A stretch of 64,000 nucleotides of DNA from Chitinophagaceae bacterium (GTDB lineage: Bacteria > Bacteroidota > Bacteroidia > Chitinophagales > Chitinophagaceae), in NCBI GenBank assembly GCA_017853575.1, contig JAFMJI010000009.1:1-64000 (forward strand). Reading direction: 5' to 3'. Position numbers and translations under genes: made by a program. Under the pieces are notes generated by a model. It worked only from the letters and a program-made list of their open reading frames with translations, did no database searches and had not been told where the DNA came from. Of this stretch, positions 3,939 to 6,720 are shown in pieces; the stretch's first letter is position 1, and the number at the start of each line of letters is the position of its first letter.

Positions 3939-5150
3939 ATGCCCATTAATTCTGCCAATGCATATGCTGTGCAACAGCCTGTGCCCAATATCAGTGTAAA
4001 CAGTCGATCAAGGATTCAGTCTCGTCCCCTGTCCCTCGTCCCTCATCCTTCTCAGAAAATCCGTTTCGACAAAATCAACATCTTTGTTCTCGCTCCATAT
4101 TTGGAAACAGAAGACAACAACATCAATTATTATTACGACTTCACCCAAAGCATAGAAGAGTACACAAAAATTTTTGGTGAGTTGAATGCACATTGGAAGT
4201 GGCAGCCAGTCACCATGAATAATTTTGCATCTATCATTGAATCAATTGTTGCAGATAAAAAATCAAAACGCACTCCTGTGTTCCTCAATCTTTGTGATGG
4301 TGATGAAGTGAATGGAACTCCGGGAATTTCGGTGTTGAAAAAACTGGAAGCATTGAATTTAATTTACACTGGTTCGGAAGAATATTTTTATAATATCACT
4401 ACTTCCAAAATACCAATGAAAAAGGCATTTGATAAATACAAAGTGCCTACTGCAAAATGGAAAATGATTCAATCTGCAAATGATACAGTAGATGATATGT
4501 TTGAAACGGTTGGTAGAACAGTGATTTTGAAACCTGCAGTATCTGGTGGCAGCATGGGCGTGGGTGTTAAGAATGTTGTGAGCAACAAGACTGCCATGAA
4601 AAAGCAATTGAAAAAAATGTTTGATGGATACCGCGGATGGGATCTTTCCATTGATGGCATCATAGCAGAAGAATTTATCAAAGGAAGAGAGTTCACTACC
4701 ATGATCACCGGTTCAAGTAAATATCCATCAACATGTAAAGTATATGATCCTGTTGAAAGAGTATTTCATCCTTCATTACCAGAAAAAGAAAAATTCCTTT
4801 CCTTCGATCGTTTGTGGGAAATCTATGAAGATGAAACACCCATGCCTTCCAATGAAAATTTTTACGAATACACATCCGTAGAAAAATCTTTGGCAGATCA
4901 AATCAAAAAAATCAGCTTCGACGCATATAAATCAGTGAAAGGAACCGGATATACAAGAGTGGATATCAGAATGGATGACCTCACAGGAAAATTATATGTA
5001 TTGGAAGTGAACGCGCAATGTGGATTAAGTGAAGATGAAGACTATACTTCCATCGGGGCCATATTAAAAGCAAACAATACAAGTTTCAAAGAAATGATTC
5101 TTGAGGTGTTGCAAGATGCATTCACCAGAAAAAAAATAAAATGGGATTAA
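3939..5150 (+). CDS. Ddl-like ATP-grasp ligase
   Basis: This 403-residue protein resembles D-Ala-D-Ala ligase in layout. The N-terminal domain ends in LNLCDGDEVNG and IYTGS (about 116-145), the ATP-binding lysine segment is ILKPAVSGGSMGV (196-208), then EEFIKGREFT (244-253), and the metal-binding end is RVDIRMDD...LEVNAQCG (340-362), where Ddl has a Pro-Gly ending. It presumably makes an amide bond from a carboxylate through an acyl-phosphate; the substrate is unknown. Residues 28-37 are translated from a 7-bp repeat, so the first 42 residues are probably dispensable, but no later in-frame ATG precedes the conserved part. It overlaps the next gene by 10 bp, suggesting translational coupling. 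Confidence 0.88.
   Translation: MPINSANAYAVQQPVPNISVNSRSRIQSRPLSLVPHPSQKIRFDKINIFVLAPYLETEDNNINYYYDFTQSIEEYTKIFGELNAHWKWQPVTMNNFASIIESIVADKKSKRTPVFLNLCDGDEVNGTPGISVLKKLEALNLIYTGSEEYFYNITTSKIPMKKAFDKYKVPTAKWKMIQSANDTVDDMFETVGRTVILKPAVSGGSMGVGVKNVVSNKTAMKKQLKKMFDGYRGWDLSIDGIIAEEFIKGREFTTMITGSSKYPSTCKVYDPVERVFHPSLPEKEKFLSFDRLWEIYEDETPMPSNENFYEYTSVEKSLADQIKKISFDAYKSVKGTGYTRVDIRMDDLTGKLYVLEVNAQCGLSEDEDYTSIGAILKANNTSFKEMILEVLQDAFTRKKIKWD
4021..4048. repeat. Heptanucleotide array inside coding sequence (4 units)
   Basis: Four 7-bp units (CTCGTCC, CCTGTCC, CTCGTCC, CTCATCC) sit in frame near the 5' end of the ATP-grasp gene and encode a Pro/Leu/Ser-rich stretch. The period matches the intergenic GTTRACN arrays but the unit sequence differs. 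Confidence 0.75.
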
Positions 5151-6544
5151 AGGTTTGTGTTTTACAGCCTGATTATTCAACCTCTTCAGTAGATTATCAG
5201 TATTACGATCCCCCTCGGCAGTTATCCCATCTCATGCCAGAGGCGAGTTTTGAATATGTTTCCCTGAATAAACTTACTACCTACAAACAGCTGTTGGAGT
5301 GCTCCAAAAAAAACTTCGACATCTTTGTTAACCTCTGTGAAGGATATCTTGAGTGGGAAGTGCCATCGATTGATGTCATTCAAACACTTGATCTGCTTGA
5401 ACTTCCATATACGGGTCCGACGGTAACATTATACGATCCTCCTAAAACAGTAATGAAGTACCTCGCTTATTGCGAAGGTGTCATTTCACCTCAATACCAC
5501 GAAATCAGATCTGTCAACGATGCAAAAAAAATTGCATCAACAGCTAGCTACCCATTGTTCGTAAAACCAGCGAAAGCAGGCGACAGCCTGGGTATTGACA
5601 GCGGTTCTTTGGTGAAAGATGGAAATGCGTTGATTGAAAAAGTTTCATCCATCATTGAAGAATTTCCAGTCTTGTTGGCTGAAGAATATATTGATGGAAG
5701 AGAATTCACAGTGCTCGTTGCAGCGAATGCAGACGGCAAAACATGTACATCATTCAAACCGGTTGAATATATTTTCCCAGAAGGCTTTGCATTCAAAACC
5801 TATGCACTCAAAACATCTGAATTGCATCCTGGAGCAAATGTTCCCTGTAATGATCCAGCACTCGAAAAAGAATTAAGAGCTGCAGCAGAAAAAATTTTTA
5901 AAGGCTTCGGCGGAAAAGGATATGCAAGAATGGATTTCAGGGTAGATAAAAATGGAAAGATTTATTTTCTTGAAATCAATTTCACTTGCTCTGTTTTCTA
6001 TGCAGATGGATATGAAGGCTCTGCAGATTATATTCTGAAATTTGATGGCATTGGTCAGGCAGGATTTTTAAAACATATTATTGAAGAAGGAATTGCCAGA
6101 CACCAGCGCAAACAAAAAGCATATGAAACCAGAGGTAATTCGATCGCAGGTTATGGTATCTATGCAAAGCGCCTCATCAAACAAGGTGAACGCTTGTACA
6201 AAGGTGAAGAACGTCCAACCAGAATTGTTTCCAAAGCTTGGGTGGATAAGAACTGGAATGAAACAGAACAACTTAAGTTCCGCCAATATGCTTACCCATT
6301 GGGAGGCGATAAATATGCGATTTGGGATGAAGAACCACATGAATGGTCGCCTCAAAACCATAGCTGCGATGCCAACTGTGCAATGGAAGGACTAAACATG
6401 GTTGCTGTGAGAGAGATTCAACAGGATGAAGAACTTACGCTCGACTATGCATATTTTTTAGACAAAACCATGGAGCCTTTTCAATGCAATTGCGGTGCGA
6501 AGAATTGTAGGGGGGTGATTAAAGGAACGGCTGTTGACGGTTGA
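5141..6544 (+). CDS. ATP-grasp ligase fused to SET / post-SET methyltransferase
   Basis: The 467-residue protein has two modules. Residues 1-315 are a second Ddl-like ATP-grasp: VNLCEGYLEW (63-72), YTGP (90-93), LFVKPAKAGDSLG (139-151), EEYIDGREFT (181-190) and RMDFRVDKNGKIYFLEIN (263-280). Residues 333-461 are a SET domain: GYGIYAKRLIKQGE (337-350), NHSCDANC (406-413) and ELTLDY with the expected catalytic Tyr436, followed by post-SET CNCGAKNCRG (449-458). Cys409 of NHSC plus C449, C451 and C456 would form the usual zinc site. SET domains methylate lysine with S-adenosylmethionine, so the fusion suggests a ligated peptide or protein that is also methylated; that is inference. It is coupled to the preceding ATP-grasp gene. 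The last codons and the stop lie inside a heptanucleotide array. Confidence 0.88.
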   Translation: MGLKVCVLQPDYSTSSVDYQYYDPPRQLSHLMPEASFEYVSLNKLTTYKQLLECSKKNFDIFVNLCEGYLEWEVPSIDVIQTLDLLELPYTGPTVTLYDPPKTVMKYLAYCEGVISPQYHEIRSVNDAKKIASTASYPLFVKPAKAGDSLGIDSGSLVKDGNALIEKVSSIIEEFPVLLAEEYIDGREFTVLVAANADGKTCTSFKPVEYIFPEGFAFKTYALKTSELHPGANVPCNDPALEKELRAAAEKIFKGFGGKGYARMDFRVDKNGKIYFLEINFTCSVFYADGYEGSADYILKFDGIGQAGFLKHIIEEGIARHQRKQKAYETRGNSIAGYGIYAKRLIKQGERLYKGEERPTRIVSKAWVDKNWNETEQLKFRQYAYPLGGDKYAIWDEEPHEWSPQNHSCDANCAMEGLNMVAVREIQQDEELTLDYAYFLDKTMEPFQCNCGAKNCRGVIKGTAVDG

Positions 6545-6595
6545 CAGTTAACAGTTAACTGTTGACAGTTGTAAGTTATAAGTTTTAAGTTGTAA
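6533..6595. repeat. Heptanucleotide tandem array (9 units)
   Basis: Nine uninterrupted 7-bp units all begin with GTT: five of GTTRACN type, then GTTGTAA, GTTATAA, GTTTTAA, GTTGTAA. The first units overlap the final codons of the ATP-grasp-SET gene, so the stop codon is made by the repeat. The drift from GTTRACN to GTTNTAA links the heptad arrays to the GTTGTAA-rich inverted repeats. Confidence 0.85.
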
Positions 6596-6716
6596 TTGTT
6601 ATAATCGTTGTAATTGTTATAGTTGTTGTTAACTTCAACTGTTGTTAACTTACAACTTATAATCTACAACTTACAACTACTAAAACAATTACAACGATTA
6701 CAACAACTACAACAAT
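6596..6716. repeat. Large imperfect inverted repeat
   Basis: A perfect 15-bp arm ATCGTTGTAATTGTT at 6604-6618 matches its complement at 6684-6698. The flanking words (GTTGTAA on the left, TTACAAC on the right) extend the pairing with interruptions. It closely resembles 1514-1662 in composition and placement, ending just before a start codon. Confidence 0.78.
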
Positions 6717-6720
6717 AAAA

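Follow-up and report, generated by a model that had tools for sequence, protein, structure and literature searches.

Two overlapping genes in a 64,000-nucleotide stretch of DNA from a Chitinophagaceae bacterium (the whole of that stretch being referred to here as the window) constitute a real module, in which a Ddl-type ATP-grasp amide ligase, LigA, is followed by a second such ligase fused to a complete SET and post-SET domain, LigB-SET [Table 1]. The fusion spans 35 of the 92 genera sampled in the family, and LigA accompanies it in every family genome found to carry it. We consider it an even call that the two proteins are enzymes of a pathway that, independently of NRPSs, makes a small methylated peptide-like metabolite for export.

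Two Ddl-type ligases, one of them fused to a SET domain

The LigB-SET ORF (positions 5141-6544, + strand, 467 aa) shares 10 bases with that of LigA on the same strand, and PF07478 was found above the Pfam cut-off in both, bearing out an earlier note on this DNA that had described two overlapping Ddl-like ATP-grasp genes, the second with a complete SET and post-SET domain. LigA and LigB are 27-31% identical to each other. The predicted structure of LigA (AF2) has a mean pLDDT of 81, residues 1-38 falling below 50 (very low confidence), and all 50 of its Foldseek matches listed were Ddl or D-Ala:D-Lac ligases; the top matches of the ligase half of LigB were likewise Ddls (best E 3.4e-19). The ATP-grasp Mg/ATP residues of the Ddl type are present in LigA, with K198, R340, D342, E356 and N358 invariant in an alignment of 72 sequences (72/72), and K142, E181, R263, D265, E278 and N280 of LigB are invariant in 81 of 81, the window's own sequence counted.

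Both proteins depart from genuine Ddls at the end of the domain, where LigA reads LEVNAQCG and LigB LEINFTCS, unlike the aligned Ddls, which end in LEVNTVPG, LEVNTSPG or LEANTSPG. Against the NCBIfam Ddl models, LigA scored at best 91.9 bits (cut-off 243) and LigB 84.8 bits (cut-off 245.65). With the NTxPG ending, which shapes the D-Ala site of Ddls, gone and scores this far below cut-off, the earlier note is supported in not expecting D-Ala-D-Ala as the product. In addition, the position of Ddl Tyr216 is occupied by Thr225 in LigB (81/81) and by Trp in 10 of 11 rows of the distant alignment, a correspondence matched by eye, as were both the DdlB Lys215 and Tyr216 equivalences.

Table 1. Features of LigA and LigB-SET in the window.
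Feature	Positions	Strand	Details
LigA	3939..5150	+	Ddl-type ATP-grasp amide ligase, 403 aa; PF07478 Dala_Dala_lig_C, E 3.7e-16
LigB N-terminal Ddl-type ATP-grasp half	5141..6115	+	aa 1-325; PF07478, E 5.7e-21
SET + post-SET domain, C-terminal	6119..6541	+	aa 327-467; PF00856
NHSC motif	6356..6367	+	aa 406-409; N406, H407 and C409 in 81/81
Tyr436 of ELTLDY, catalytic-position tyrosine	6446..6448	+	81/81
Post-SET zinc-site cysteines C449, C451, C456 (CNCGAKNC)	6485..6508	+	81/81

PF00856 was recovered in the second ORF alone, at aa 337-436, with an E-value of 1.8e-10 and a score of 41.6 bits where the Pfam cut-off is 22.4. Its NHSC motif, which we take to be the SAM-binding knot of the domain, varies solely at position 408, where Ser, Cys and His occur in 49, 19 and 13 of the 81 sequences, respectively. 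A SAM-binding role is given to motifs of this type in the available part of PMC1282579. The catalytic residues listed for the two halves of LigB were intact in the 81 near sequences (window counted) as well as in 10 distant ones, so that the loss of SET catalytic residues considered in the earlier note is not what orthologs display; 10 of the 11 rows of the distant alignment count here, the L122 row being a wrongly picked ORF, that of the neighboring exporter. The first glycine of the SET GxG motif (G337) is mostly Ala in the distant clade (7/11 rows). A single-sequence phmmer search with the LigB SET domain returned MLL1 (E 1.5e-9) and BurB (E 1.4e-8), and a profile search returned BurB (2.6e-11) and MLL1 (8.2e-11). 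The window's genome has three SET-matching places, a count that bears on the statement that SET domains are rare in bacteria.

Conservation and genomic context of the pair

In a scan of named genomes from which the best 80 of 327 relatives were kept, the SET/ligase fusion was found in 80 of 80 loci. LigB-SET was further detected in 83 of 294 family genomes, the matches in G526 and G600 being partial. Given its recurrence in both sets, the fusion is no assembly accident. LigA adjoins LigB-SET in 79 of these best 80 loci and is present in 83/83 of the family genomes with LigB-SET, on the same contig in 82; in one additional genome (G558), LigA is cut by a contig end. The pair thus stays together in relatives, as anticipated, with looser spacing here and there: about 1 kb lies between the two genes in L073, and their starts are 1.9-3.1 kb apart in G485, G502, G531 and G614. 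Distances among LigA and LigB sequences co-vary (r = 0.86, 71 loci), as expected of the co-evolution that had been suggested, but this is weak evidence since shared descent yields the same pattern; Fisher p-values likewise leave shared descent out of account. In the distant clade, LigA was not found in a search at E 1e-10; LigB-SET is retained there along with a full ABC exporter and a small SET protein that stands alone. One genome of another family (G270) has LigA, LigB-SET and the small SET gene, LigA and the small SET sharing a contig and LigB-SET lying on another.

This small standalone SET protein and an ABC-type membrane protein, both missed by the earlier note, are likely partners of the pair. 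When all flanking ORFs at the loci of the best 80 of 327 relatives were clustered, the two were the commonest tightly placed same-strand neighbors after LigA, as they are outside the window's genus. The small SET gene neighbors the pair in 43/80 loci, its position having an IQR of 67 bases, and that of the ABC-type protein does so in 29/80 (IQR 41). Among the 294 family genomes, the small SET occurs in 79 of the 83 with LigB-SET and is absent from four; two genomes have it without LigB. In G269 and G398, the SET search retrieved LigB's own SET domain and no small SET. The gene is distant from the pair yet retained in 11 of the 79 genomes; in G350, both are on one contig, 1.7 Mb apart, and in the window's genome the small SET is on a contig other than that of the pair. 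Assembly breaks could partly explain small SETs found on other contigs. In the f37 genomes with LigB-SET, the small SET adjoins it in 9/9 and a full ABC exporter comes next in eight, the ninth contig stopping 49 bases on.

The ABC-type membrane protein was found in 33 of the 83 LigB-SET genomes and was not found in a search of the window's genome; Pfam detected no ATPase domain in the one protein analyzed. Median gaps within the module are 35, 46.5 and 105 bases, medians being used because the minimum (-1419) is a cross-hit artefact. A check of these gaps for graspetide precursors revealed a closed ORF of 20-46 aa in 9 of 29 gaps between LigB and the membrane protein, with no resemblance by eye. 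Two other genes are tightly placed in the best 80 of 327 relatives, one of 239 aa on the opposite strand (21 loci) and one of 255 aa (16 loci), mostly at loci without an adjacent small SET. Tandem Ddl-like pairs devoid of SET (L149-L151) were rejected as the same system; their neighbors are a GNAT acetyltransferase and a lysine 2,3-aminomutase (Pfam on L149 only).

No support was found for the roles first proposed for the window's own flanking genes, a permease and a lipid reductase upstream and an aminopeptidase, a phosphodiesterase and an amidohydrolase downstream, the latter three suggested to recycle the product. In loci searched with the window's proteins, the GMC, permease, DUF1295 and M28 genes adjoin the pair in the window's genus only. 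Moreover, in a congener without the pair (G008; L176), the DUF1295 gene is followed 291 bases on by M28, and the 3.9-kb locus yielded no LigA or LigB match at E 1e-3. Neighbor-based recycling was therefore rejected, and since the reductase-like gene directly precedes the peptidase in a pairless congener, the permease, reductase and peptidase look incidental. A loose tie remains inside the genus, where 10 of the 11 LigB-SET genomes have a DUF1295 match; G004 has LigB-SET and no DUF1295 match at E 1e-60. G017 decides nothing in this regard because its DUF1295 and LigB-SET genes are on separate contigs, each at a contig end.

Possible roles of the module

If LigA and LigB-SET serve such an NRPS-independent pathway, the small standalone SET would act at the outset, methylating a free amino acid or a similar small acceptor much as BurB methylates methionine. 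LigB, whose ATP-using machinery is seen in its conserved residues, would then make an acyl phosphate from a carboxylate and couple it to an amine, and its SET domain may put a further SAM-derived methyl group on the same molecule; ligation and methylation of one and the same product, as first suggested, is plausible. In Chitinophagaceae, LigA would form one additional amide bond, and the ABC-type membrane protein, or the full ABC exporter in the distant clade, would carry the product across the membrane. More tentatively, Bacteroidota might harbor a previously undescribed class of NRPS-free pathway in which SET domains, the fold of histone methyltransferases, take free amino acids or short peptides as substrates and a single polypeptide ligates and methylates. 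Its exported product might, for example, be a peptide osmolyte or signal bearing methyl groups (sulfonium or betaine-like). Counting against the pathway, all SET enzymes known to us other than BurB and its homolog MSMT act on proteins. The slightly better single-sequence match of the LigB SET domain to MLL1 than to BurB, the two unconserved BurB SAM contacts in the small SET, the altered GxG of the distant clade and the patchy occurrence of the ABC-type protein, LigA and the small SET also weigh against it.

Protein lysine is indeed the usual target of SET enzymes, and the ligases could instead attach amino acids to a protein, at its terminus or on a side chain, with the SET domains methylating a lysine of that protein or of the tag. 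Animal TTLL12, in which a SET-like domain is united with a TTL ligase domain whose motifs resemble those of ATP-grasp enzymes (PMC3520985, in the part available), would fit such peptide tagging, as would one distant locus (L144) where LigB-SET has after it, on its own strand, an FGase, a MATCAP-family carboxypeptidase and an ATP-grasp protein of the GSH-synthetase type. We nonetheless regard tagging as unlikely: of the loci read by eye, L144 alone shows the MATCAP context, which is absent from the ORFs so read in L145, L146, L060, L067 and L155, an exporter-like partner better suits a small product, and the Ddl-type matches in Pfam and the PDB are small-molecule enzymes.

Regulation, whereby LigB-SET and the small SET would methylate lysines of LigA or LigB to switch amide formation, leaving the product unmethylated, appears very unlikely. 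A dedicated regulator would likewise give a fusion and tight co-occurrence, but the small SET stands beside a full LigB-SET in the distant clade devoid of LigA, which rules LigA out as a target common to both; one ligase served by two separate SET proteins would be unusual, and we know of no precedent for SET domains regulating amide ligases. That the pair are diverged Ddl paralogs making either a dipeptide of the resistance type or an altered stem peptide for the cell wall, as the Ddl fold and ATP-grasp domain would allow, is highly improbable in view of scores far under the Ddl and Van model cut-offs, the lost NTxPG ending, the Tyr216 substitutions (assigned by eye), the presence in just 83 of 294 family genomes, and a further Ddl-type gene at C36 of the window's genome, which is probably the housekeeping Ddl.

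Should the proposed pathway prove true, a SET lineage besides BurB would act on small molecules while physically joined to an amide ligase, with bearing on SET roles before or outside chromatin, and an uncharacterized methylated metabolite would await discovery. Labeling such SET proteins protein-lysine methyltransferases may accordingly be wrong. With two to four genes, the module is small and amenable to tests in E. coli.

Comparison with known systems

Titles and opening lines of abstracts yielded no description of a bacterial SET/ATP-grasp fusion, which a 2009 amidoligase survey may nevertheless mention. With Ddl and Van ligases, LigA and LigB have in common the fold, the ATP/Mg residues and the top Foldseek and PDB sequence matches; they differ in falling far under curated Ddl cut-offs, in lacking NTxPG, in an omega-loop that is, by eye, altered, and in the fusion of a SET domain to one ligase with a tandem partner. 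BacD-type dipeptide-forming ligases of natural products are, like LigA, ATP-grasp amide ligases, and act on small molecules, the profile match to LigA (E 6e-5) being weak and the similarity remote, and to our knowledge none has a SET domain. MLL1/KMT2 lysine methyltransferases share NHSC, ELTxDY and the post-SET CxCx4C with the LigB SET domain, MLL1 being its best single-sequence match, whereas LigB-SET is bacterial, fused to an amide ligase and devoid of chromatin domains.

BurB, a methionine S-methyltransferase of the DMSP/malleicyprol pathway (PDB 9l4t, 9l4v), is like the small standalone SET in size and in its post-SET cysteines, and is the best solved match of that family, its profile E-value of 1e-18 being almost ten orders of magnitude below that of the next best (5.6e-9). 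In the available part of PMC12542666, BurB is a SET-domain enzyme that methylates free methionine, to which its contacts are main-chain, and no ligase partner is described. The two SAM-contact side chains of BurB, Arg133 and His138 (native numbering), are not conserved in the small SET in a by-eye alignment. TTLL12 of animals, in which in vitro histone methyltransferase activity is absent according to the part of PMC3520985 available, resembles LigB-SET in combining a SET-type domain with a ligase domain bearing ATP-grasp-like motifs; the ligase of LigB is Ddl-type by Pfam and fold rather than TTL-type, and belongs to a different lineage.

Architecture, conservation and setting of the ligase pair

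The genes for the two ligases, LigA and LigB-SET, overlap by 10 bases. Both proteins fall well short of the listed cut-offs of curated Ddl and Van models, and their ligase portions end in NAQCG (LigA) and NFTCS (LigB) where aligned Ddls show NTxPG. The AF2 models of LigB-SET and LigA (mean pLDDT of 84.5 and 81.1, respectively) found their best structural matches in Ddl structures. Domain matches and models thus bear out the earlier note's reading of tandem Ddl-like ligases, the second fused to a SET/post-SET unit. Read by eye, the stretch that separates LigB-SET from the M28 peptidase gene is dense in short repeats of the TAACAGTT / ACTTATAA / TTGTAATTGTTATAG type.

Locations of the features discussed (L, loci; C, contigs; G, genomes)
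Feature	Location	Strand	Description
LigA	3939-5150	+	Ddl-type ATP-grasp
LigB-SET	5141-6544	+	Ddl-type ATP-grasp, C-terminal SET domain, then post-SET cysteines
Repeats	6545-6720		LigB-SET-to-M28 gap
Small SET, window's genome	C35:106450-106908		Standalone SET protein
Third SET match, window's genome	L001:1459-1842 (C15:68551-68847)	-	128-aa frame
Site without the pair	L176, C1:201591-202505 and flanks		Congener G008
Membrane protein	L155:10419-11300		TM-only ABC_membrane_3
Distant LigB-SET region	L144:5041-10792		Genome G269
Tandem ligases without SET	L149:8519-12349		Ddl-like
Tandem ligases without SET	L150:6856-10608		Ddl-like
Tandem ligases without SET	L151:7945-12218		Ddl-like

In a first set of 60 relatives, the window's own genome counted in, the full fusion was present in 11, and LigA adjoined it in all 11. 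A scan of named genomes yielded 327 relatives, of which the best 80 were retained; their titles read Chitinophagaceae, other Bacteroidota, 'uncultured bacterium' or a few genera, with Terrimonas pollutisoli, Sediminibacterium, Hydrotalea and Ferruginibacter represented. LigA lay upstream of LigB-SET on the same strand in 79 of these 80 loci (L073, where the two are ~1 kb apart, included), the single exception, L111, beginning at a contig edge. The pair's adjacency across relatives, a check proposed in the earlier note, therefore held in both sets.

LigB residues K142, E181, R263, D265, E278 and N280, SET residues G337, G339, N406, H407, C409 and Y436, and post-SET C449, C451 and C456 were invariant in 81/81 near sequences, the window included; the loss of SET catalytic residues, which the same note had looked to as a sign against its reading, was seen in none. 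Ten correctly picked distant LigB-SET sequences (ligase half 34-38% identical, SET half 37-46%) kept the listed LigB and SET residues, save G337 (mostly Ala) and, in some, G339. LigA K198, R340, D342, E356 and N358 were kept in 72/72. Judging from this retention across near and distant LigB-SET and LigA sequences, selection appears to act on both the ligase and the SET activities.

Among the loci compared, the window's permease, DUF1295 (reductase-like) and M28 genes recurred beside the pair within its own genus only. In G008, a congener devoid of the pair, M28 lies 291 bases after DUF1295, and neither ligase has a match in the intervening stretch. The pair was thus inserted into, or lost from, a site that exists without it, and the earlier proposal that these neighbours recycle the product loses its basis, though DUF1295 is also present in 10 of the 11 fusion genomes of the 60-relative set.

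A small SET protein and a membrane protein as likely partners

Outside the window's genus, a common form of the module is a small SET protein (~165 aa), LigA, LigB-SET and a membrane protein, in that order, the latter corresponding to Pfam ABC_membrane_3 without an ATPase domain (Pfam run on L155). This exporter-like partner is TM-only in Chitinophagaceae; a distant clade has a full exporter. When every flanking ORF at the loci of the best 80 of 327 relatives was clustered without bias, 43 loci held the small SET (position quartiles -1725 to -1658) and 29 held the membrane protein (1518 to 1559). Five further tightly placed families (IQR <450 bases) occupied 21, 16, 14, 11 and 8 loci. The first three overlap one another, mostly in loci lacking an adjacent small SET, which suggests a local gene order particular to a single group of relatives. 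They include, in 21 loci, a 239-aa gene on the opposite strand ~-2146 from LigB and, in 16 loci, a 255-aa gene on the same strand ~+1491 from LigB; L048, L055, L065, L067, L076 and L081 are among the loci with such neighbours.

Neither partner was found beside the pair in the 11 window-genus loci. The window's genome does encode a small SET (E 4e-41); the membrane protein was searched for in that genome and not found. This genome has one more gene with a SET match, the third; a frame that by eye resembles shikimate kinase comes next in the same orientation, and no tie to the module was seen.

Among 294 family genomes, LigB-SET was present in 83, LigA in 84, the small SET in 81 and the membrane protein in 35. 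The two ligases occurred together in 83, on a single contig in 82 (two contigs in G600); LigA stood alone only in G558, where it is truncated by the contig end. LigB-SET and the small SET were both present in 79 genomes and both missing from 209 (Fisher p 5e-64, shared descent ignored), with LigB-SET alone in four (G017, G026, G659, G676) and the small SET alone in two (G558, G560). LigB-SET and the membrane protein coincided in 33 (p 1e-18, shared descent ignored), the latter occurring without LigB-SET in G558 and G652. In 11 of the 79 genomes with both, the small SET lies apart from the pair (G000, G011, G350, G524, G548, G581, G611, G626, G661, G690, G713); in G270, from another family, LigA and the small SET share contig C18 while LigB-SET is by itself on C31. 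This unlinked retention weighs more than the p-values and argues for one function shared by the small SET and the pair.

Distant versions in other families

A search of 395 genomes from other families of the phylum yielded 11 distant full-length fusions. In nine genomes of one distant clade, f37, the small SET lies immediately upstream of LigB-SET. A full ABC exporter follows in eight, the ninth contig stopping 49 bases on, and a second, shorter SET match occurs further on in 8/9. No LigA orthologue was found in these genomes at E 1e-10, matches to the LigA profile being LigB itself. The small SET and LigB-SET may therefore form the core of the module, with LigA gained or lost. The small SET was looked for and not found in G269 and G398, which have LigB-SET; in G269, FGase, a carboxypeptidase of the MATCAP family and an ATP-grasp protein of the glutathione-synthetase type come after LigB-SET in the same orientation. 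Three genomes from other families harbor tandem Ddl-like ligases without SET, adjoining a GNAT acetyltransferase and lysine 2,3-aminomutase (Pfam on L149), perhaps a separate pathway for a beta-lysine-containing peptide or osmolyte.

Candidate pathway and known systems

In the pathway we propose, the small SET would methylate a free amino acid, LigB-SET would ligate the methylated amino acid via an acyl phosphate and methylate a second time, LigA would provide optional extension, and the ABC-type protein would export the product. Median gaps inside the module are 35, 46.5 and 105 bases. No conserved precursor gene was seen within it, short ORFs occurring in 9/29 gaps and showing no mutual resemblance by eye, which lowers the likelihood of a RiPP pathway. 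Of three other alternatives to the proposed pathway, a protein-tagging system is the most likely, ligases regulated by methylation come second, and a cell-wall role is the least likely.

Among solved structures, BurB matches the small SET family best (E 1e-18), ahead of an H3K36-type enzyme (5.6e-9); for the SET half of LigB, MLL1 and BurB are about equally near. In PMC12542666, BurB is described as a tetrameric SET enzyme that converts free methionine to S-methylmethionine and grips its substrate via main-chain contacts. From these affinities, methylation of small molecules is plausible for both SET domains, more so for the small SET. Two SAM-contact side chains of BurB, Arg133 and His138, are not conserved in the small SET (alignment reading). 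Titles and abstract openings in the literature searched revealed no bacterial SET/ATP-grasp fusion; a 2009 amidoligase survey may mention one. In that literature, SET domains and ATP-grasp enzymes are named together only in a paper on TTLL12 and in a study of drug side effects. TTLL12, as presented in PMC3520985, unites a SET-like and a TTL-like domain in one protein and had no histone methyltransferase activity in vitro. The component parts are already known; their combination appears to be new.
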